From NCBI GenBank assembly GCA_036873755.1, contig JAVTVY010037103.1, positions 62,001 to 126,000 on the forward strand: DNA of 64,000 nucleotides. The letters run 5' to 3'. The stretch is from Hanleya hanleyi (Eukaryota; Mollusca; Polyplacophora; Lepidopleurida; Hanleyidae). Under the pieces are notes generated by a model. It was not told where the DNA came from. It made no database searches and worked only from the letters and a program-made list of their open reading frames with translations. A program made the translations under genes and the position numbers. Shown piece after piece: positions 6,342 through 56,889 of this stretch. Positions within the stretch are counted from its first letter, which is position 1. Each line of letters begins with the position of its first letter.

Positions 6342-7776
6342 ACAAGAGCCCAAGGGGCTTCAATATACGCCCGTATATCTGGAATTACATTGGTTCAAAT
6401 TTCAAGATTGTTTGATAGCCTTGATTCCAATTGATCTAGCAATCCAGAGAAAGGTCTACAATTTTTTGCTTATAAGAATGTAACATATATCACATCTTAT
6501 ATTGAATGATAAACTAAAATGAGCTCAACTCTTGGTAACGCAGCAAGGAAGCAATCAGAGATTGCTCAATTGTATGCCCCCCTTCCGCTTTAATCCGACA
6601 CTGCTCCACCATTGTTCTGTTTTGTATTGGTCTGTGGAGGCCTAATTTGGCTAAATTATAAAAATTCTGTTTCAGTCACTTTTTTCGGCATGCCTCGCAT
6701 AATATATGTACATATTCCGCCCGGGGCTTTCGTCAAATATGACCTGGTTATGAGACCTACATTCCTTGGGAGTATACTGTGGTGAAATTATGAAGCGATC
6801 GTGAACTTTGAATTTTGCATCCAATTCACTCTTTTAGGGGCAATTTCATACTTCAGGACCTATGTGATCTACTTTGGCATACATGTGCTTTGGACAAATA
6901 AATATATCCCATTCATTTAGGTTTGATGAACAAAGGGTAACTCTTGAAAATATAACCGAAAGCAGAGAAACTTCATGCTGCACAACTATGGGGTACTGAC
7001 CACATATCATGCAAATTCCATAATTGTTCATACAATATTAACCGAGATCCAGCCCGGACAAGTCCCAATTCACAAAGATTTCAAGAACAAAAGGGCCATA
7101 ACTCTTGAAATATACGCGAAACGCGGAGAAACTTCACACTGCACAACTACAGGGCACTCTCCACATATCCTGCAAATTCCATACTTGTCCATACAATATT
7201 AACCGAGATCCAGCCTGGACAAGTCCCAACTCACAAAGACTTGATGAACAAAGGGCCATAACTCTTGAAAATATATGCGAAACGCAAAGAAACTTCACGC
7301 TGCACAACTACAGGGCACTGACCACATACCCTGCAAATTTCATAATTATCCATACAATATTAACCAAGATCCAGCCCGGACAAGTCCCAATTCACAGAGA
7401 TTTCAGGAACAAAGGGCCATAACTCTTGAAAATATAGGCGAAACGGGGAGAAACATTACGCTGCACAACTGTGGGGCACTGACCACATGTCATGCAAATT
7501 TCATACTTGTTCATACAATATTAACCAAGATCCATCCCAGACAAGTCCCATTCACAGAGATTTCAGGAAAAGGGCCATAACTCTTGAAAATGATACCGGA
7601 ACTCGGAAAAAACTCGACGCTGCACAACTATGAGCCACTGGCCACATTCCATGCAAGTTTCAATCCTGTCCATCAATTATTAACCGAGATATCGAAGGAC
7701 AAGAAATTCGGACGGACAGACGGACGGACAAAGCGATCGCTATATGCCCCCCCTCTAGTTAGAGGAGGGGCATAAC
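6342..7776 (+). mobile_element. Tandem-monomer element, family A, copy 1
   Basis: Left end ACAAGAGCCCAAGGGGCTTC carries a small palindrome. From about 6950, ~155-bp monomers follow (GGCCATAACTCTTGAAAATA ... GCTGCACAACTA ... CAATATTAACC ... GGACAAGTCCCA). Then come a GGACGGACAGACGGACGGAC run, AAAGCGATCGCTATATG and a terminal hairpin CCCCTCTAGTTAGAGGAGGGG with CATAAC. Related copies lie at 9013-9577, about 27240-29338 and 35700-36754. Open frames at 6975-7775 arise from monomer periodicity, not from a gene. The left boundary is less certain than the right. Confidence 0.75.
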
Positions 7777-10700
7777 TAGTTGACCTTGAAGCAATAGCTT
7801 AGAGCTCACATATCCCACACTGAAATCGACAATAGTCAAACACAAGAAAATAGTAGTTTTCCTGCAAATGAATTCCTTTCAGATGAGAGAATTTTTCATG
7901 AAGGAAGAAGAAAGAGATGAAGTAAACCTTTGTCCTTGAGTTAATAAACAGGTGTGAAGCTCATAAAGGACTCCTCTCCCCGTTAAATTTGTAAATGTAT
8001 GTTTTTTTATTTCGCAACAGTTTAACTAAATGAAGCGTTTCAAACATGGGAGACAACTCAACAGGACAATATCATATAAATGCAGGGGAAAGACTTTTGA
8101 ATATTCCAACAATATTCCAACACATTTAGTCAGCTAAGCTTGATTCATTTTTGCGACCTAGACCTTTGACAAATTGATCTCATATGTATGGCTCCACTTT
8201 GCCATGCGAGTAAGGTATACTCAAAGTTTGGTACCAATCCATACCTTGAAACTAGAGCTATCGCATGGACAACAAATTTTAATGGATGAATGGACAGAAC
8301 GCAACATCGCATTACACGACCTCGTCTTCGACAGGCATATGTCAATGTGACTTTTAATGATTTCTGATTTTGGGGTCACAGTGACCTTGACCTCAATTTT
8401 GATACACAACACATTGTCTTCCCTCAATCTAACAATGCACACAAAAAATCATGATTTTTAATGATTTCCTGATTTTGGGGTCACAGTGGCCTTGACCTTT
8501 GACCGTGACCTAAATTTTGGTACATGATAAACCGTCTCCCCTCAATTTCTCAATGGACACAAAAATTCATGATTTTTAACAATTTCACGATTTTGGGGTC
8601 ACAGTGACCTTGACCTTTGACCTTGACCTACATTTTGGTATGTGACTCATCATGTCCCCCTAATGTATCTACTGACACAAAAAATGTTATTTTTAATAAT
8701 TTCCTAATTTTGGGGTCAGTGACCTTTGACCTTGACCTAATTTTTGGTACGCATCACTTCATTTCCGCCAATCGAACCCACTCACAAAAAATTAGAAATT
8801 TTTAACGATTTCCTGATTTTTGACACTGACCTCTGACCTTGACCTACATTTAATATGCAACACATCGTTCCCCCCCTAGGGCATCCACTCACCAAAAATT
8901 AGAACTTTAGATAGAAAACTGTCAACGATCAATGATTTCCTGATTTTTGGCAACAGTGACCTTTGACCTCTGACCTCGACCTCAATTTTGGTACGCGACA
9001 CATCGTCTTGTCCAACTCACAAAGACTTGATGAACAAAGGGCCATAACTCTTGAAAATATATGCGAAACGCGAAGAAACTTCACGCTGCACAACTACAGG
9101 GCACTGACCACATACCCTGCAAATTTCATAATTATCCATACAATATTAACCAAGATCCAGCCCGGACAAGTCCCAATTCACAGAGATTTCAGGAACAAAG
9201 GGCCATAACTCTTGAAAATATAGGCGAAACGGGGAGAAACATTACGCTGCACAACTGTGGGGCACTGACCACATGTCATGCAAATTTCATACTTGTTCAT
9301 ACAATATTAACCAAGATCCATCCCGGACAAGTCCCATTCACAGAGATTTCAGAAAAAGAGCCATAACTCTTGAAAATGATACCGGAACTCGGAAAAAACT
9401 CGACGCTGCACAACTATGAGCCACTGGCCACATTCCATGCAAGTTTCAATCCTGTCCATCAATTATTAACCGAGATATCGCGCGGACAAGAAATTCGGAC
9501 GGACAGATGGACGGACAGACGGACGGACAAAGCGATCGCTATATGCCCCCCCTCTAGTTAGAGGGGGGGGGCATAACTAGTTGACCTTGAAGCAATAGCT
9601 TAGAGCTCACATATCCCACACTGAAATCGACAATAGTCAAACACAAGAAAATAGTAGTTTTCCTGCAAATGAATTCCTTTCAGATGAGAGAATTTTTCAT
9701 GAAGGAAGAAGGAAGAGATGAAGTAAACCTTTGTCCTCGAGTTAATAAACAGGTGTGAAGTTCATAAAGGACTCCTCTCCCCGTTAAATTTGTAAATGTA
9801 TGTTTTTTATTTCACAACAGTTTAACTAAATGAAGCGTTTCAAACATGGGAGACAATTCAACAGGACAATATCATATAAATGCAGGGGAAAGACTTTTGA
9901 ATATTCCAACAATATTCCAACACATTTAGTCAGCTAAGCTTGATTCATTTTTGCGACCTAGACCTTTGACCTCATATGTATGGCTCCACTTTGCCATGCG
10001 AGTAAGGTATACTCAAAGTTTGGTACCAATCCATACCTTGAAACTAGAGCTATCGCATAGACAACAAATTTTAATGGATGAATGGACAGAACGCAACATC
10101 GCATTACACGACCTCGTCTTCGACAGGCATATGTCAATGTGACTTTTAATGATTTCTGATTTTGGGGTCACAGTGACCTTGACTTCAATTTTGATACACA
10201 ACACATTGTCTTCCCTCAATCTAACAATGCACACAAAAAATCATGATTTTTAATGATTTCCTGATTTTGGGGTCACAGTGGCCTTGACCTTTGACCGTGA
10301 CCTAAATTTTGGTACATGATAAACCGTCTCCCCTCAATTTCTCAATGGACACAAAAATTCATGATTTTTAACAATTTCACGATTTTGGGGTCACAGTGAC
10401 CTTGACCTTTGACCTTGACCTACATTTTGGTATGTGACTCATCGTGTCCCCTTAATGTATCTACTGACACAAAAAATGTTATTTTTAATAATTTCCTAAC
10501 TTTGGGGTCGGTGACCTTTGACCTTGACCTAATTTTTGGTACGCATCACTTCATTTCCGCCTATTGAACCCACTCACAAAAAATTAGAAATTTTTAACGA
10601 TTTCCTGATTTTTTAATCACACTGACCTTTGACCTCTGACCTTGACCTACATTTAATATGCAACACATCGCTCCCCCCTAGGGCATCCACTCACCAAAAA

Positions 10701-27239: not shown

Positions 27240-29338
27240 AACACAGCAAGGAAGCAATCAAAGATTGCTCAAATGTATGCCCCCCTTCCGCTTTAATCAG
27301 ACACTGCCCCGCCATTGTTCTGTTCTGTATTGGTCGGTAGAGGCCTAATTTGGATAATTATAAAAATTCTGTTTAAGTCACTTGTTTTGCCATGCGCGCA
27401 TAATACATATTCCAAGTATCGACCAACAAGTGATAATACAATGTTTTGATGCAAGATGGTTGCCGGGGCTTTCGCCAAATCCGAAAATGTGACCTGGTTA
27501 TGAGACCTACATTCCTTTGGAGTATATTGTGGTGAAATTATGAAGCAATCAGTGAACTTTGAATTTTGCAACCAATTCACTCTTTTTGGGGCAATTTCAT
27601 ACTTCAGGACCAATGTGGTCTGCTTTGGAATGTAGAATTACATATATATAGCCATTTTCCCAGTCCAAATCGGTTATGGACTGAGATCCAGCCTGTACAA
27701 ATAAATATATCCCATTCACTCAGGTTTGATAAATGAAGGGCCATAACTCTTGAAAATATAACCGAAAGCAGAGAAACTTCACGCTGCACAACTATGGGGC
27801 ATCGACCACATATCATGCAAATTTCAGACTTGTCCATACAATATTAACCGAGATGCAGCCCGGACAAGTCCCAATTCACAAAGATTTGAAGAAAAAAGGG
27901 CCATAACTCTTGAAAAAATATGCGAAACGCGGAGAAACTTCATGCTGCACAACTACAGGGCACTGACTACATATCCTGCAAATTTCATGATTGTCCATAC
28001 AATATTAACCGAGATCCATCCCGGACAAGTCTCAATTCACAATAATTTGAAGAAAAAAGGGCCATAACTCTTGAAAATATACGTGAAACGCGGAGAAACT
28101 TCATGCTGCACAACTATGGGGGACTGACCACATATCCTGCAAATTTCATAACTATCCATACAACATTAACCGAGATCCAGCCCGGACAAATCCCAATTCA
28201 CGGAGATTTCAGGAACAAAGGGCCATAACTCTTGAAAATATAAGCGAAACGCGAAGAAACTTCACGCTGCACAACTGCGGGGCACTGACCACATATCCTG
28301 CAAATTTCATAATTGTCCATACAATATTACCCAAGATCCAGCCCGGACAAGTCCCATTCACAGAGATTTCAGGAAAAGGGCCATAACTCTAGAAAATGAT
28401 ACCGGAACTCGGAAAAAAATTCACGCCGCACAACTACGAGGCACTGGCCACATTCCATGCAAGTTTCAATTCTGTCCATCAAATATTAACCGAGATATTG
28501 CGCGGACAAGAAATTTGGACGGACGGACAGACAGACCGACAAAGCGATCGCTATATGCCCCAGGGGCGTCACTAGGATTTCAAAAGGGGGGTGCGAATGT
28601 TTTCAATTTTGAAAGACGGATCTAGCGAAAGTTCATAGGGGGGAGGGGGGGTCGATTATCACAGCCCAACAGGCGAGGGTCCAGGGGCCGCCTAGGCCCC
28701 GGAAGCTCCGGGGTCCTAGATCGGCGGAGATGCGTTCTAAGCGTTTTCCCAGATATAAATCTGAACATAATGTGTGCAGATTTATGGTTCTATTTTCACG
28801 TTTGTTTCACATTTATAAGCACACCTAGCTTCGTTAGGAACAAGGTCACGTCATACGACATAGTCAGTGATCAACCTAACCTTCTTGGATACCCAGGGAG
28901 ACTTTCATTTGTTTTTGTGAAACAGGAGGTACGATCTGCAGTGGCTAAATTTGTGTCATCTATCACCACATCAATATAATGACAAATCAGTCCGAACAGG
29001 AACTGTGTTTTTTGTACATGCGTTGGTTCTTTTGGATATCCACTGCTCGTTGCATTTCTGAACTTAATATTGTGATTCTCCGGTAATTGATGGCTGATCT
29101 CTGTGCCGTGAACTGTGAAAATTAGGGGGTCCGGGGGCATGCCCCTGCCGGAAATTTTAAATTTTGACGCATTATTTCCTGCATTTTAGCGTATTTTAAA
29201 GCTAAACTGGGGTTTGATATCTTACATAATTTCCGTATTCCAATCTACGGGCAAGAAGGGGGATGCGTTCGCACCACACGCACCATGGGTAGCGACACCC
29301 TTGTGCCCCCCCCCTCTAGTTAGAGGGGGGGGGCATAA
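27240..29338 (+). mobile_element. Tandem-monomer element, family A, third copy, interrupted
   Basis: The body matches 6540-7776: GCAATCAAAGATTGCTC near 27255, CCATTGTTCTGTTCTGTATT, then five or six ~155-bp monomers (27735-28500), the GGACGGACGGACAG run and AAAGCGATCGCTATATG. The terminal hairpin is split: its left half stops at 28560 and CCCCTCTAGTTAGAGGGG with CATAAAT resumes at 29307. A foreign element occupies 28561-29303. A further partial head copy sits at 27120-27235. Confidence 0.75.
28561..29303. mobile_element. hAT-like non-autonomous element nested in the family A hairpin
   Basis: Ends are CAGGGGCGTCACTAGG at the left and GTAGCGACACCCTTG at the right, an imperfect terminal inverted repeat of the CAGGGGCG type common in hAT elements. 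Length is 743 bp with no transposase. It sits inside the terminal hairpin of a family A element, so it arrived later. The flanks (TATGCCC and TGCCCCC) are low-complexity and leave the exact 8-bp duplication ambiguous. Confidence 0.7.
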
Positions 29339-30754: not shown

Positions 30755-33700
30755 TTATGATTCAGCTGACTGGTCCTGGCTACCAGCGGTGACTACCTCC
30801 TCTGTTCTCTCTGTGTCTCCCTCCTGTTCTGACAGGGGCTCTTTAGGGGGTGGGGGTGAAGCGGACTCGGTAACTGGCTCTGTCTCTTGCACTACTGAAA
30901 TTAAGCACACAAATGTTATTACAGTACATGTGGTGTTTTGATATTGCCAATTTCATTGTTATCACAGTGAACATCAACAGTGGTTCTCTGGAGTTTTGTA
31001 GTGTAAACTTCATTTCTAGTTGCATACCATACCAAAGTCAAAGACAAACAGTTCGATGAGCTATTAGACTGACCCAGCGTCATTTTTGTAAACCTAAGTG
31101 CAGTACAACATAATCAGTTAAATATTTCTAAATAAAACATGGTACATGGGGTTACAGAATACTATGCCAATCTTGGTTGTAGTTGCTCCAGATGAGAAGA
31201 TTTTCGGCTGGCAGTTCTACCCATCAGCTAAACTGTAACCTTGTAGGTAAAACTAACCTGGTTGAGGAATGTCCTTGCCAAATTCATCTCCTCGTGAACT
31301 CTTCCACTCGCCCAGTCTCTCCAGACATGGCCTGTTCCCTGCGACGATGTGCTTACTGAACCCTTGTAACATCTTGTGAGCCATAGAAATACCATACTGT
31401 ACACGATTTACACTGATAGCCTCGGAGTCATTGTGCGCACGAGACAGGTTATAAGCCTTACTGAAGTATTCTGTGGCCTCATCATATCTTCCCTGCATAG
31501 AAGAACATTGTAATGATTAGAGGTCAGAATGATACGATTCTCACATGCTCTAACATACACTGGATTAACCAGACCAACTAATCCACAAATCCCCCCCCAG
31601 TTATGTACATATCAAGAGAGTTGTACAGGACCCCAGGTTATGTACATACCAGAGAGTTGTAGATGACTCGAGGTTATGTACATACCAAGAGAGTTGTAGA
31701 TGACCCCAGGTTATGTACATACCAGAAAGTTTTAGATGGTCCTAAGTTAGGCTGGTTAAAATTAATTTCTTGTTTAGCATCATTTTTGAAAAAAATCTGG
31801 GTAGGGCGGGTGTTTTTTAAAATGTTTATTATAAAAGTGGCCCTTGAAAATATAATCCCAAAAGAAAATCTTGGCTCGTTGCTGGTGGATTTATGTTATT
31901 TTATCAAGGTTAAGACTACTTGTCTTCGCTATGTGTGTGGATACTTACAGCCAGCAATCATACATTTTGAAAATGGGAACAGCCAGTTACTCTTTTTAAC
32001 AAACATAAAGTTAGGGCCATTATGATGGCATCCGACTCTCTTTCTCATGCGACAGTCGGACAGAAAATGACACATGGTCTGAATGACATGCGATGGGCCT
32101 ACCAACACACTCCACATATAATTCTTTCAAACTATTAAATTTGTATGATGTGATACAAGAAATGAGGCTGGGCGATTCATGTCGATGATCGTGTTTTCGT
32201 GGACCCGATACACGTCCAAAGATGATGGGTGGCCCGGAAAAGGTCCGGTGACATGCGCTTTTTAATAGCGGGATTGAAACCGTTTCTGAGAAATGTTTTG
32301 AATTTCGGAAAAAATAAATATATACCAATTTGTGTATTTTCAATTTTGAATTCACACCTGAAGCCTGTTTCTGACATGGACACTGACAGGGAATTCTGAA
32401 AATGAACTACAACAAGGCAGAGTTGTAACTTGTACCATATAGAATATAATATCTCTTTATTGTATGCTTCCCAAAGGGTTGACGTTTACAGAGAAACAAT
32501 AAATTGGCAATGCATGGCAGCCTCGGCTATATATAGGTCGACGATCAGAAAATCTCGACTTCGTACTCCAAACTGCATCGCCGGGTGGTGGAAACTAGTT
32601 TATTGAACAGAAAAAAATTGGTTTGTGTCTGGATCTAGTTTCATTAAATTTCAGTGTACGATTTATTGAACACTACTTTTGCTTTGCTGTAGTAAGTAGT
32701 TCGACTTGGATCTCGGAAACTTGATTACAAAAATGCGAAAAAGAAAAAAAAAGCTTTGGGGTGGGCGAATATTTCGGGGTGGGTGGTGATGCTAAACAGG
32801 ATTTTTTTTTAGCCAGCCTTATGTACATACCAGAGAGTTTTAGATGGCCCCAGGTTATGTACATACCAAGAGAGTTGTACATGACCCCAGGTTATGTACA
32901 TACCAGAGAGTTGTAGATAGCCCCAGGTTATGTACATACCCGGGAATTCTAGATGGCTCCCAGGTTATGTACATACCAGATTGTTATAGATGGCCTCGAG
33001 GTTATATACCGTTCCGAGCTGTGAATGACCCCAATGTATCTACAAGAGAGCTGTAGATGTGTGTACCAGAGAGTTGATTATGGCCCCCAGGTTATGTACG
33101 TACCAGAGAGTTGTAGATGGCTCCCAGGTTATGTGTGTACCAGAGAGTTTTAGATGGCCCTCAGGTTATGCACATACCAGAGAGTTGTAGATGGCCCCCA
33201 GGTTATGCACATACCAGAGTTGTAGATGGCCCCCAGGTTATGTGTGTAACAGAGAGTTGTTTATGACCCCCAGGTTATGTACGTACCAGAGAGTTGTAGA
33301 TGGCCCCCAGGTTATGACAGGCTCTACTGAAGGCTTTCTCCTGTTGGTTATTCTCAGTCACCTCTACAAACATCTGTAGGTAATGGATGCACTCTTCAAT
33401 CCTTCCCTGTCTGAATACACAATGTTCATGTCACTAAAATATTAGACTAAGGGACGGTATCCAACCAGCGTTTGCTGTTGAGACGTTTTAAACGATGGAA
33501 AAAAACGCTCAGCTACTACACCCATCGTTTGCACCATCGTTTTTTTTGTGTAGCAAACGATCAAAAAACCATCACCGGAGACGGCCGAAGGTACCGCTGT
33601 CGTTCGGAAGAAAACGTCGTCGTTTGGAAGACACTGACAAAAGACGATCGCACGTGTTAAGCTGCGCATAAATACACACTGGGTGAACAGGCCGTGCCTT

Positions 33701-36700
33701 AGCTCTCAACTGCTCACATGTGTAACAAAATATAGCGCTATCAGCGAATGTGAAAACGGGTTTAACACAGGGGAAATAAATTACACTTTAATCGCCTTCC
33801 GCGTTTGTTTTAAAGGTTTGATTACGAGAAGTCGCTGTTTGTGTGCAAAAATTTTCTATGAAAATGACAACCATCTAGCTGTGATAATGGAAGTGTCACG
33901 TACGCAAATAAAACTGAATGGTTTAATAACACCCTCCCCATGTATGCACGGTGTAAAAAATTTCTTTGAATAGGCCGGAAAAGGTAATCAACAGATAACT
34001 CTGCCGATCCGTTTTTCACGGCCTCAAGCGACACAGCCGTTGTTGTTGTTTTTGCGTCTGTAAAGCGGGACTACTTTCGAGCCGATCGTTTGCCAGGAGA
34101 CTTTCAATCGTTTGCTAGAAAACGTCTGCACCTTTGTTCGAGGTGTGAAAAGACGACCGGCACCCTTACCGTAGGTTGCCGGAGATTTCCGGCGATCGTC
34201 TTTATCTGACCGGCGTTTTTTAAAAAAACGATCAACTCATACACCCATCGTTTGCATCGACGTTTTTTTTCATCGTTTAAAACGTCTAGCAAACGAACGT
34301 TGGATGGATACGGTCCCTAAGTAATCTTCTGCTTCCCAGTTTCTTCTCAGTGAATTTCTCAGCAATAATTTGGACAAAAATTAATATTTCATGTCACAAA
34401 TAGCACATGTGTACCAAGTCTCATAATCATACAATGAAACCTGACGAATTCAGTAAAATTCTCAGTACATTTTTGTCTAACGAAAAAACTCATAAATTGA
34501 CAAATTACCTAGTTCAAAACCTCATAATTTGGACACAAATTAATATTTTATCTCATAAATACCACAGGCAAATCTTCTAATCATGAGAAACATGTGTATT
34601 AAGTTTCATAATCATCCTTGACAGCTGACAACTGCAGCAAACTTTCTATGTACAGGTGTATATGTACATGTACATGTAGAAGGCCTACAATTTTGCTAAA
34701 CAAAAAACTCACATCTGCCATAATTTGGACAAAAAATAATATTTCATCTCATAAATAGCACATGTACATCCTCTAATCACAAGAAACATGTGTACCAAGT
34801 TTCATAATCATCCAATGACAGCTGACAACTGCACTATGTAGAAGACCTACAATTTTGTTAAACAAAAAACTATCATCTGCCATAATTTGGACAAAAAATA
34901 ATATCTCAACTCCTAAATAGCACATGTACATCCTCTAATCATAAGAAACAAGTGTAGCAAGTTTCATAATCATCCCGTGACAGCTGACAAATGCAGCAAA
35001 CTTTCTATGTACATATGCACTTCAGCTAAACGAAAAACTATCATATACATGTAGATTTTAACATTGGGGCACCCATAGAATCCCCTAGGATAGTGCCATG
35101 ACTGACCCCCCTGGTGGAATACGCACCTCCCATATTTTTTTAGTTTTTTTTTCTGAATTTTTCTTGATTATTTTTTAGAATTTGCTAAACCAAAAACCTG
35201 ATCATCTCCAGGGAGGGGACGACGACACGGATGATGACATCCTCTTTCCTCCTCTCAAAATATCTCGCCTTACGAGTGAGATAAAAATGTCAATAGTAGT
35301 GTCACACTGCATGTGCCACAATGCTAACATCACCTCCACTCAACTTACGCTCATACTATTCAGCTTGTATCACTGACGTCCCTGTTCCCCCCCGTTGATT
35401 CACATCGCCTCTTGGCCGTAAGGGGGTCCTTTATCTGGTTACCCAATCGCCGTGCCATAATAGCTCGGAGATAACCAGATTCCTCATACTAACCACGATT
35501 GGCTAACTACCTCACGTGATCAAAATTATGTCATACCTTCATGATAGTCAGATCACGACTCTCACGTAATGTGGAAGCCATGCCAGTATTTTGACAGCGA
35601 CACGCCCCCTTACCGCATCTCTCAAAGGAACTTTTCCCCGTCTTTATTAACAGTCAACATTCAATTCAAAATCTGAAGCAATTGAACCGCGTTTTTACGT
35701 TACCATTCTAGGCAACTTGATCTCCTTATATACTCATGACGATAAAACATGGTCTTATCAGTGGAATATTAACACAGCTCAAATGTATGCCCTCCTTCCG
35801 CTTTAATCTGACACTGCCCCGCCATTGTTCTGTTCTGTATTGGTCTGTGGAGGCCTAATTTGGATAATTATAAAAATTCTGTTTCAGTCACTTTTTTCGG
35901 CATGCCTCGCATAATACATATTCCAAGTATCGACCAACAAGTAATAATACAATGTTTGATGCAAGATGGTCACCAGGGTTTTCGCCAAATCCAAAAATGT
36001 AACCTGGTTATGAGACCTACATTCCTTGGGAGTATATTGTGGTGAAATTATGAAGCGATCGTGAACTTTGCACCCAATTCACTCTTTTGGGGGCAATTTC
36101 ATACTTCAGGACCTATGTGGTCTGCTTTGGAATGTAGAATAACAATTTTATAGCCATTTTCCCGGTCCAAATCGGTTATGGACTAAGATCCAGCCTGGAC
36201 AAAAAAATATATCCCATTCACTTAGGTTTGATGAACAAAGGGCCATAAATCTTGAAAATAAACGCGAAAAGCGGAAAAACTTCACGCTGCACAACTACAG
36301 GGCACTGACCACATACCCTGCAAATTTCATAATTGTCCATACAATATTAACCAAGATCCAGCCTGGACAAGTTCCAATTCACGGATATTTCAGGAACAAA
36401 GGGCCATAACTCTTGAAAATATAAGCAAAATGGGGAGAAACTTTACGCTGCACAACTGTGGGGCACTGGCCACATACCATGCAAATTTCATACTTGTCCA
36501 TACAATATTAACCAAGATCCAGCCCCGACAAGTCCCATTCACAGAGATTTCAGAAAAAGGGCCATAACTCTTGAAAATTATACCAAAACTCGGAAAAAAA
36601 ACTACGAGGGAACTGGCCACATTCCATGCAAGTTTCAATCCTGTCCATCAAATATTAACCGAGATATCGCGCGGACAAGAAATTCGGACGGACGGATGGA

Positions 36701-42700: not shown

Positions 42701-45043
42701 CAGTGTTGTGGTTGAGGTAATGATATAACATCAAGCCTGCCACCCATCAGAAAGATTATTGAGTGACCACTACAAGAGAGAACTGACCTGAGAGTTCTAA
42801 CCACCAGGGCAAAGTTTCTGTCTAAGGGTTGACAGGTACAGACAATTATAGCCCTCGCATGACAGGATGATCAGATTCTCCTACCAAGGAGTGACTGAAA
42901 ACAATTGACTACTTCAGTGTTACCTTTTCTGTCAGCAGATTCGGCCATAGTAAGATGAAGTTTGAGCATGTCTAGTTTTTCCTGCTGGTCCTCCAGCTGT
43001 GGTAATGTCCACAGTATAGATTCTGATCCCGCAGCATGTCTCTCTTCTTGTTGACGTCGTATCAGGGCAAACAATTCACCATATGACTTGTGAAAACCCT
43101 CCTGTAACATGTCCAGGCACAAACTGTGCTTGTATGTGTTACGGTACCTGTCAGAATTAGCGCATAATGTTATTATTTAAACAAAAATGACTGAATGATC
43201 AGAAATAATGATAGAAGAGTTGCTGGTCATAATTAGTAATTACGAGCAGATAAAAATAATCTACTCCAATTGCAATAGTTAATACGAAGCTGCGCATCTG
43301 AAAACCCCTCGGCTCTGGGCGCCAGTCATTCATAATGTATTCAATTTGAACCAAGACTTCAGGAACACCAAGCAGTCAGGTGACAAATATACAGATTATG
43401 AAAAATTTTGAAATTAGAAATGGCCTCTAAGGTTTCCGTCAAATCAGAGAAACCGGTATTCATTACATAAGTCTCTTGATGCATGGACGATGTATACCAA
43501 ATTTTACATCGAGCATTTGAAAGTTATCGGAGATAGAGATCATTAATGATTTTGCATAAATTAAAGATGGCCACGCATGCATCCTTCCCACCACTCAGGG
43601 GAACTGATGTGGTTATTCATTGCAAGTCTCTTGATACATGGATGCTGTATACAAGTTTCATATAGAACACTGAAATGGTAACAAAGATATACATCATTAA
43701 AGATTTTGCATAAATTAAAGATGGCCACCAAGGTTTCGCCCAATCAGAAAAACCAGAACTGTCATTTATCGTAAGTCTATTGATGCATCGATGATGTGTA
43801 CCAAATTTTACATCGAGCACTTGAACGATATCAGAAATAGAGATCGTTAATGATTTCGCAAAAATTAAAGATGGCTGCCCATCCTTCCCACCACTCAGAG
43901 GAACTGATGTGGTTATTCATTGCAAGTCCCTTGATACATCGATGCTGTATACCAAGTTTCATATAGAAAACTGAAATGGTTTCAAAGACATACATCATTA
44001 AAGATTTTGCATAAATTAAAGATGGCCACCAAGGTTTCCACCGAATCAGGGAAACTGGTTTGGTCATTCCTTTGAAGTTTCTTGATGCATCGATGATCTA
44101 TACCAAGTTTCACAATCAACAGTGAAATGGTACCTGAGATACACAAGATTAATGGTTTTGCATAAATTAAATATGGCCACCAAAGTGTCCAACCAATCGG
44201 GTCCAGATTCAATAGGGTTCTGGGTCATGAGCATATGGATGTGCAGTGCAAGTTTGGTGTGCCTAGGGTAAGTCGTTCTAAAGATATCTTGGTAACGATA
44301 AAGCTGTGATGGTTTCGCATGAATTAAAGATGGCCGCCAAAGCTTTCAACCAATCAGGTCCAGATTCAATAGGGTTCTGGGTGACGAGCATATGGATGTG
44401 CACTGCAAGATTGATGTGCCTAGGGTAGGTCGTTCTAAAGATATCTTGGTAACAAGAAAGGAGTGACGGACAGACGGACGGACGTACATGACGACGACAA
44501 TACCCTTCGGCCAAATTTTGGCCGAGGGGTAAAAACTTCATCAATTATGAAGTTACCATACAGAGACCTGCATCAAGATTATTCAGTTAACAGAAATAAC
44601 ACAAATGTAATGAATTCATTCCTCGACAGTCGAGATCTCATGTCGAGAGCCTAAACTATGTTGAATATGCCAGTTATAGGTCACATGACTGTAACATGAC
44701 CGCGTACATGTTGAAATACAATACAGACGGTCGCCATCTTGGACATATAAACATGTTGACTTACAAATATTACAACAAACATATACAGAAACAACACTTA
44801 CATCGAGGTTTGTGCCTTGTTCAGTAGAGGTTGTTGAGCTCTTAATCTGTTTCTTTTTGCTTCTACTTCTCTGTCTTTTTTCCCCTGTACTTTTAAAGGT
44901 TTCAAAATTTGTCTGTTGTTGGAGGACTTTGAAGGTGGGGTGGGGACATTGTATCTTTGCAGATTGGATGCCTGGGTCATACCAGTCATCCCTGTCATCC
45001 CAGCCATTCCTGCTCCGGGGATTGGCGGCAAGGTCGCCGCCAT
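30755..45043 (-). CDS. TTC29: Tetratricopeptide repeat protein 29
   Basis: TTC29 is a TPR protein of motile cilia and sperm flagella; human loss-of-function causes flagellar malformation and male infertility. Coding exons on the minus strand, in order: 45043-44802, 43147-42924, 40612-40427, 39377-39165, 38640-38555, 37693-37602, 33410-33287, 31492-31258 and 30894-30755. All introns are GT/AG, every phase matches and the frame closes at 513 aa (human about 475). Diagnostic segments are KHSLCLDMLQEGFHKS (exon 2), DKWLVDHFFTSCLDVSR (exon 3), GERKLAGETAYRLGLAYE (exon 5) and GRYDEATEYFSKAYNLSR (exon 8), with TPR helices from about 195 to 440. The N-terminus has repeated GMTGM and a basic region; the C-terminus is a P/E-rich tail. 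The start is the first ATG after an acceptor at 45058, so a 5' non-coding exon is likely. Intron 7 is occupied by a minisatellite copied from the exon 7 donor. Confidence 0.92.
31600..33325. repeat. Minisatellite of 35-37 bp units derived from the TTC29 exon 7 / intron 7 junction
   Basis: About 18 units resembling GGTTATGTACATACCAGAGA plus GTTGTAGATGGCCCCCA: four at 31600-31748 and about fourteen at 32820-33325, parted by a transposon. On the minus strand each unit reads CATAACCTGGGGGCCATC, then TACAACTCTCTG, then GTATGTA. The first 30 bases are the last ten codons of exon 7 (HNLGAIYNSL) and the rest is its splice donor, so the array multiplies the exon end together with the 5' splice site. 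Confidence 0.9.
31750..32818. mobile_element. Harbinger-like non-autonomous element inside the minisatellite
   Basis: Terminal inverted repeats GGCTGGTTAAAATTAATTTC and, from the other end, GGCTGGCTAAAAAAAAATCC, both continuing into TGTTTAGCATCA. It is flanked by TTA on both sides (31747-31749 and 32819-32821), a 3-bp TWA duplication typical of PIF/Harbinger elements. Length 1069 bp, no transposase. Removing it joins AAGTTA to TGTAC and restores the minisatellite phase. Confidence 0.75.
33451..34317. mobile_element. Harbinger-like foldback element in TTC29 intron 6
   Basis: Ends GGGACGGTATCCAACCAGCG and, inverted, GGGACCGTATCCATCCAACG. The similarity extends inwards through AGACGTTTTAAACGATG and CATCGTTTGCA motifs. 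TAA flanks both ends (33448-33450 and 34318-34320), a TWA-type duplication. Length 867 bp. Its edge is 41 bases upstream of the exon 7 acceptor. ORFs inside it are not gene-like. Confidence 0.75.
34365..35315 (+). mobile_element. Tandem-monomer element (about five ~150-bp monomers)
   Basis: Monomers contain AATTTGGACAAAAAATAATA, CTCATAAATAGCACATGTAC, GTTTCATAATCATCC and TGACAGCTGACAACTGCA. The right end has GGACGACGACACGGATGATG, then a hairpin-like TATCTCGCCTTACGAGTGAG and ATAAAAATG. This repeats the order array, GAC-rich run, hairpin, TAAAA of the other families. Lies in TTC29 intron 6. Confidence 0.6.
35365..37335. repeat. Inverted repeat arms around a family A copy
   Basis: GTATCACTGACGTCCCTGTT, then GATTCACATCGCCTCTTGGC (35375-35412), is the inverse of 37250-37335, where ATGTGAATCAGCGGGGGGAA and GGGACGTCAGTGATAC occur. 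The similarity covers about 70-90 bases per arm only. Confidence 0.45.
35700..36754 (+). mobile_element. Tandem-monomer element, family A, fourth copy
   Basis: Begins CATTCTAGGCAACTTGATCT as at 27173, continues through CCATTGTTCTGTTCTGTATT and two to three monomers (36230-36660), then GGACGGACGGATGGACAGAC, AAAGCGATCGCTATATG and the intact hairpin CCCCCCTCTAATTAGAGGGG with CATAAC. Lies in TTC29 intron 6. Confidence 0.75.
39416..40153. mobile_element. Short-TIR non-autonomous DNA element in TTC29 intron 3
   Basis: Twelve-base perfect terminal inverted repeats, AGGGCTGTTCCA at 39416 and TGGAACAGCCCT ending at 40153. The sequence just inside is rich in AACCACC. The termini resemble hAT types, but no clear 8-bp duplication was found. 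It begins 39 bases upstream of the exon 4 acceptor. Confidence 0.55.
43296..44536 (+). mobile_element. Tandem-monomer element, family B, in TTC29 intron 1
   Basis: About seven ~150-bp monomers with TTGCATAAATTAAAGATGGC near 43551, 43708, 43858, 44008, 44158 and 44312, and TGATGCATCGATGATCTATA. The right end is GACGGACAGACGGACGGACG, then GACGACGACAATACCCTTCG, and the hairpin CGGCCAAATTTTGGCCG with AGGGGTAAAAA. Minus-strand frames at 43561-44544 are products of the repeat. An inverse copy of the end lies at 54596-54664. Confidence 0.75.
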
Positions 45044-55949: not shown

Positions 55950-55970
55950 TCAGGATAACCAAGGACAAGC

Positions 55971-56410
55971 ATCAGATCCCACATTCAGTAGCATTAGCCA
56001 TTGTCCAAATTGTTTTCCAACATTGACATCTAAATATTAACATCAGATCCCACATTCAGTAGCAAGCCATTGTCCAAATTGTTTTCCAACATTGACATCT
56101 AAATATTAACATCAGATCCCACATTCAGTAGCAAGCCATTGTCCAAATTGTTTTCCAACATTGACATCTAAATATTAACATCAGATCGCACATTCAGTAG
56201 CAAGCCATTGTCCAAATTGTTTTCCAACATTGACATCTAAATATTAACATCAGATCCCACATTCAGTAGCAAGCCATTGTCCAAATTGTTTTCCAACATT
56301 GACATCTAAATATTAACATCAGATCCAACAGTCAGTAGCAAGCCATTGTCCAAATTGTTTTCCAACATTGACATCTAAATATTAATATCAGATCCAACAG
56401 TCAGTATCTA
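55971..56410. repeat. 69-bp minisatellite, about 6.4 units
   Basis: Units start ATCAGATCCCACATTCAGTA at 55971, 56042, 56111, 56180, 56249, 56318 and 56387. The first unit is 71 bp and the rest exactly 69 bp with almost no divergence, so expansion is recent. It ends about 480 bp upstream of the SUPT7L start codon and probably lies in a 5' intron. Confidence 0.9.
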
Positions 56411-56889
56411 GCCATCATCCATACAGAAATCCTGTCTATTTAAAAATACATGTAGTGTGAATTTCTGTGAATAAAACATGGCATTATGGTACATAACAGT
56501 ATGTACCATATAGCCTGCATAGAAAAGCTATGGAGGTATTTTAGGGCTACATCAGTAAAGTCTATCCTCAAAACCATAAACACAAACTTGCCTTATTATT
56601 CATGCCTTTTATAAAAAAAACATGTTTGGATAAATTATCTTATATGTGCATCAAATCTGTTGACCTAATTATCTGAAGGTATAAAACTCTATACTCTACC
56701 ATTCATAGAACACAGGTCGATGGATTTGCCCAACTCTGGCAAAAATAATTCCCTAGACTCAGCTAAATTGTCTTGACTCATAACTTCACCCTTTTTCTTT
56801 TTTTTTCTTTTTTTTGCAGAAAAGAGTGTTTTCAACATTGTGCTCTTCGTTTGAATTTGCTTAGTGATTGCAGACAAGAAGAAGATATA

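Follow-up and report, generated by a model that had tools for sequence, protein, structure and literature searches.

A minisatellite probably derived from an exon end and its splice donor in the TTC29 gene of Hanleya hanleyi

The TTC29 gene and the repeat array of intron 7

The window analysed here is a stretch of 64,000 nucleotides of Hanleya hanleyi DNA (assembly GCA_036873755.1, contig JAVTVY010037103.1, positions 62,001 to 126,000), which carries on its minus strand a gene of nine exons, as defined by homology, with a predicted product of 513 amino acids (Table 1). The gene is identified as the orthologue of TTC29, a gene of the animal cilium and sperm tail. A protein search with the product gave 67 matches, 59 of them at E <= 1e-99, and the named matches are mostly TTC29 or TTC29-like, with the others hypothetical, unnamed or uncharacterized; the product thus has TTC29 matches in many invertebrates, and the best named relatives are bivalve and gastropod proteins (52-55% identity) and one brachiopod protein (53%). 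The gene model is also colinear with solved TTC29 (three PDB chains of that name, the best over query residues 73-458 with E 2.4e-81), and TPR_8, TPR_1, and TPR_2 exceed their Pfam cut-offs in the peptide of exons 7-8. Exon 6 was located without a strict phase requirement. The gene identity and exon numbering given in an earlier note on this DNA are upheld by the colinear homology, the splice signals, and the reading frame. Exon 1 also has an in-frame coding repeat at 44976-45012 (18 bp, 2.1 copies; GMTGMTGMT).

Table 1. Positions in the window of the TTC29 exons, the units of the array, and the inserted transposon
Feature	Position	Strand	Remarks
TTC29 exon 1	45043-44802	-	Splice signals and frame
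TTC29 exon 2	43147-42924	-	Splice signals and frame
TTC29 exon 3	40612-40427	-	Splice signals and frame
TTC29 exon 4	39377-39165	-	Splice signals and frame
TTC29 exon 5	38640-38555	-	Splice signals and frame
TTC29 exon 6	37693-37602	-	Splice signals and frame; end phase is the phase required by exon 7
TTC29 exon 7	33410-33287	-	124 nt; acceptor TTCAG|ACAGGG, donor CTG|GTACGT; in-frame joins to exons 6 and 8; homology
Unit 1	33280..33316	-	37 bp: final 30 nt of exon 7 and 7 nt of intron
Real donor of intron 7	33280..33286	-	GTACGTA, G+1 at 33286
Units 2-14	32824..33279	-	13 units, 8 with GTAYGT; degenerate u8-u9 at 33005-33059
Transposon	31750..32818	.	1,069 bp; ends inverted (GGCTGGYTAAAA), flanked on either side by TTA; lies in unit 15
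Remainder of unit 15 and units 16-18	31606..31742	-	GTAYGT in u15-u17, not in u18
Terminal partial unit CATAACTGGGG	31595..31605	-	
TTC29 exon 8	31492-31258	-	Acceptor ATGCAG|GGAAGA, closes the array-bearing intron 7
TTC29 exon 9 (last)	30894-30755	-	

The 3' end of exon 7 encodes ...ACHNLGAIYNSL, its terminal DNA being CATAACCTGGGGGCCATCTACAACTCTCTG, which encodes HNLGAIYNSL and is followed by the donor GTACGTA. This exon 7/intron 7 junction is repeated head to tail, and parsing by hand gives 18 recognisable units and one partial unit, with u1-u14 at 33316..32824, u15 split, and u16-u18 reaching down to 31606. In Tandem Repeats Finder the array appears as two halves, 32819-33316 (37 bp x 14.1, score 421) and 31595-31738 (36 bp x 4.0, score 214). 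With u15 counted whole, ten units measure 37 bp, four 36 bp, two 35 bp, and one each 32 and 23 bp, where u8 and u9 are so heavily degenerate that the borders of u8, u9, and u10 are arbitrary. Identity to unit 1 is 51% for u8 and 60% for u9, and 78-97% for the other units, among which two sub-types are roughly discernible in the alignment, the exon-near units having five Gs and the far units four Gs and GTATGTA. The hexamer GTAYGT is intact in 12 of the 18 units including the real donor (u1, u3, u4, u6, and u10-u17) and missing in six (u2, u5, u7, u8, u9, and u18); its 12 coding-strand occurrences in the 652 array bases, of which 30 are exonic, compare with a mean of 0.28 and a maximum of 4 in 2000 single-base shuffles. 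Intron 7 comprises 1,794 bp, made up of 622 bp of array, 1,069 bp of transposon, and a remainder of 103 bp.

Most of what the earlier note had described is recovered by this parsing, namely about 18 units of 35-37 bp (16 of the 18 have that length with u15 taken whole, and the other two are the degenerate ones), a unit composed of ten final exon codons and the splice donor (unit 1 spans the exon 7 junction), and a train of donor-like sites, which two thirds of the units keep. The single array that it had placed at 31600-33325 must be revised, since 1,069 of those 1,726 bases (62%) are transposon, not repeat.

The array is also poor in AG dinucleotides, with 10 in its 652 bases where 35 would be expected, a number as low as which was reached in 0 of 2000 shuffles, and unit 1 has none at all. 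This scarcity can be explained by the composition of the founding segment, and its consequence is that the array supplies donors but few acceptors, so that new exons would not easily be made. The joints bearing GTATGTACATA (31602-31721 and 32820-32975) contain a 10-bp palindrome, TATGTACATA, nine of whose 11 occurrences in the window lie inside the array; it might promote slippage or pairing between units.

Direction of copying and the transposon in unit 15

The exon 7 end is conserved among 21 homologues, chosen from the 67 matches and aligned at the protein level (consensus ACHNLGNIYNSLG, window ACHNLGAIYNSLG); the encoded end agrees with the consensus at nine of ten residues, and the conserved stretch falls inside a tetratricopeptide repeat. 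Because unit 1 encodes a stretch that homologues conserve, the exon is the likely source and the array the copy, and there is good support for the array having arisen through tandem amplification of this junction. Copying in the other direction, with an intronic minisatellite invading exon 7 and replacing its end, could draw on the identity of u4 and unit 1 over all 30 exon bases, which would make exchange between exon and array possible, but the agreement with the homologue consensus and the position within a tetratricopeptide repeat make such an invasion extremely unlikely. Units 4 and 6 also encode HNLGAIYNSL in frame ahead of a GTAYGT donor, as would be expected if the copies were spare junctions, with the loss of unit 1 or its replacement by exchange being harmless and the array buffering the junction against mutation. 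Just two of the 17 copies qualify for this role, however, and in the neighbouring unit 2 the donor is gone and two residues are different, so that most exchanges would be harmful, and a buffering array is highly improbable.

Under the preferred explanation, amplification of the junction, a 37-bp segment consisting of the last ten codons and GTACGTA would have been duplicated in tandem at the exon 7/intron 7 junction and would have grown to 18 recognisable units, presumably through slippage or unequal exchange, with the array being intronic throughout apart from the exonic part of unit 1. A short DNA transposon would have inserted later, into unit 15. The insertion, flanked by TTA on both sides, sits inside one unit, and the transposon is therefore younger than the array. 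We consider it probable that this tandem amplification, the later transposon, neutral growth of the intron, and splicing mainly from the first donor together account for the locus, and neutral intron growth is the most likely status of the array itself.

Elements of the PIF/Harbinger group typically have terminal inverted repeats and a 3-bp TWA target duplication. The ends of the insert in unit 15 are GGCTGGTTAAAA and GGCTGGCTAAAA, and its ends and target site together place it putatively among the PIF/Harbinger-like non-autonomous elements. When the genome was searched with the whole array span, 40 of 1104 candidates were scored and at least 57 further matches to the element were obtained, with identities of 65-92%; all of these are confined to the transposon, give or take about 10 bases. 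Seven other copies were read, and these are only about 70% identical to the element in unit 15; four of them have the end pattern at both ends, and matching TTA or TAA flanks are found in three of these four (L004, L005, and L008) and not in L002.

Competing donors and their predicted consequences

Translation continued beyond the real donor runs V-R-T-stop, with the stop 9 nt into the intron, exactly as the earlier note had stated. Every later donor retains this stop, which leads to a truncated protein whatever the unit length. The note's argument that units of 36 bp keep the frame and those of 37 bp shift it is thus without consequence, as the stop comes before them, and the length variants that it had considered possible would, if made from later donors, all be truncations. 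With the real donor, exon 7 is 124 nt long, and donors in u3, u4, and u6 would extend it to a predicted 196, 233, and 307 nt, all ordinary exon sizes.

Pairing of the donors with U1 was calculated in kcal/mol. The real donor has a calculated pairing energy of -6.3 kcal/mol, which places it at rank 7 among the eight donors of the gene, and 11 of the 17 copies equal or slightly exceed it (-6.3 to -9.0 kcal/mol), so that strength by itself would not favour the real donor. The description of the copies as near-perfect decoys is accordingly apt relative to the real donor but not relative to the consensus, since the real donor is itself weak. Between equal donors the intron-proximal site is often favoured, and given this preference the use of the first donor is a prediction, not a given. 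By the naming of competing 5' splice sites used for DOK7 (PMC5585400), the real donor counts as intron-distal, and the choice that the array could test is thus use of the distal site, where the earlier note had spoken of proximal-donor choice.

The first donor is nevertheless most likely the main one in the splicing of exon 7, since an intact and conserved reading frame would call for a sufficient supply of productive mRNA. This choice probably comes from exon definition, the first donor being the one that belongs to the 124-nt form of exon 7, and use of a later donor would yield, through the in-frame stop, a truncated or degraded product. Alternatively, a sizeable and regulated share of transcripts could be spliced from the later units and, bearing the stop, be destroyed or truncated, thereby tuning TTC29 output. 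Such a role would fit the calculated pairing of the 11 copies, the identical stop that follows from each later donor, and the retention of GTAYGT in most units, but the array looks unconstrained, with six units lacking GTAYGT, two units wrecked, and a transposon inside it, and we regard this regulation as unlikely. A more specific form, a regulated cassette of poison donors in which unit number and accessibility set the amount of productive TTC29 mRNA and the number varies heritably between individuals, has a very low probability; if true, it would mean heritable variation in a protein of the cilium and sperm tail.

Local folding was also predicted for the donors, as a difference in it might spare the real one. 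The real donor has the second-lowest opening cost among the 12 GTAYGT sites, a position (rank 1 or 2) that it also takes in 18 of 100 shuffles in which the donors were fixed and the remainder shuffled. The mean opening cost of the copies is higher than in all 100 shuffles, but with u11 omitted 20 of 100 shuffles are equally high. At three folding-window sizes, the gap between the copies (median) and the real donor is equally extreme in 6 of 100, 23 of 100, and 1 of 60 shuffles; the copies are more open than in most shuffles at the smallest size (93 of 100 shuffles at least as high) and more closed at the largest (0 of 60). The comparison with shuffled sequence therefore varies with folding-window size and with one unit, u11. 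Taken in isolation, the 15-nt donor stretches do not fold.

A minisatellite with multiple splice donors is already known from the human gene IFI6 (6-16, G1P3), where it was reportedly described by Turri, Cuin and Porter in 1995 in Nucleic Acids Res 23:1854. Its units are said to be 12 bp long and in frame, so that later donors add codons. Two downstream repeat units of IFI6 act as donors and produce three mRNA species, according to a later paper (PMC4526556). As in IFI6, the TTC29 minisatellite starts at an authentic exon-intron junction and its units bear donor-like sites; unlike in IFI6, the units are mostly 35-37 bp long with ten exon codons, each later donor would bring a stop, and the host is another gene. 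The TTC29 case would thus differ from the known one in unit, coding content, stop, and host gene. Competing donors at one exon end also occur as GYNGYN tandem 5' splice sites (PMC1779574) and in DOK7 intron 4, where two donor sites lie 11 nt apart (PMC5585400). The end of TTC29 exon 7 similarly faces competing candidate donors, but in contrast to DOK7 there are up to 12 donor-like sites across 1.6 kb, transposon included. The tandem duplication of exon sequence with a splice signal resembles intron gain through proto-splice sites, although in TTC29 an existing intron was lengthened and none was created. Intron gain of that kind involves a duplicated AG|GT serving as acceptor and donor, which unit 1 does not contain; lacking AG, unit 1 supplies donors only. 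Earthworm metallothionein introns and chicken MUC2 were considered as parallels and set aside, as no such donor array is described in the available parts of those sources. A literature search, covering its sources in part, gave no comparable donor array beyond IFI6, which is not proof of absence.

Competing donors in near-identical local context are normally studied in minigene constructs. TTC29 offers up to twelve natural donor-like sites that differ chiefly in their distance to the upstream and downstream acceptors, with the productive donor being a weak and intron-distal one. If donor use were counted in ciliated tissue or testis, the counts would measure the weight of position versus local sequence in donor choice, and they would also gauge how much wasteful splicing is tolerated in a gene. 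In this gene, a coding exon end has been turned into one member of a repeat array. As a comparable human array is known, the case is a natural experiment and not a new kind of thing.

Related sequences in the genome and neighbouring repeats

The genome searched was the 2.48-Gb assembly of 52,793 contigs. Haplotype or paralogue copies of the junction were looked for with three queries: the near half of the array with exon 7 gave no second TTC29 junction (four of four candidates scored), nor did exon 7 with the flank upstream of it (a search swamped by a transposon, with scores for 40 of 3466 candidates), and a protein query with exons 7-8 (11 of 11 scored) gave no second copy, returning the gene's own two exons and one weak match (29%, E 2.2e-4). 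Two weak matches to the array lie elsewhere (73%, E 4.8e-6), in L011 at 1444-1807 and in L012 at 1417-1780, where arrays with a 21-bp unit have TGTACATAACCT in common with the TTC29 unit. The repeat tables of L011 and L012 are identical with an offset of 27 bases, and the two may be one place assembled twice.

Such apparently double-held stretches, and the tendency of short repeats to collapse or expand in assembly, would be in keeping with a unit number in TTC29 that is an artefact of assembly. The units, however, differ from one another at many positions and the transposon anchors the interior of the array, so that the exact count alone would seem to be at risk, and an artefactual array number is very unlikely.

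Other repeats surround the gene. About 40 bp upstream of exon 7, at 33450-34321, there is an element of roughly 870 bp whose inverted ends measure about 60 bp; it has one whole match elsewhere at 98% identity and at least 38 more over about 560 bp at 99-100% (40 of 3466 candidates scored), and this high identity of its other copies makes it look young. Four arrays with a 161-bp unit (6938-7690, 9012-9490, 27736-28510, and 36233-36598) share TAACTCTTGAAAATA in their printed consensus, and the unit is classed as a dispersed satellite-like repeat. The most uniform among the listed arrays with units of more than 60 bp is a 69-bp repeat at 55970-56415, with 6.4 copies and a 97% match.
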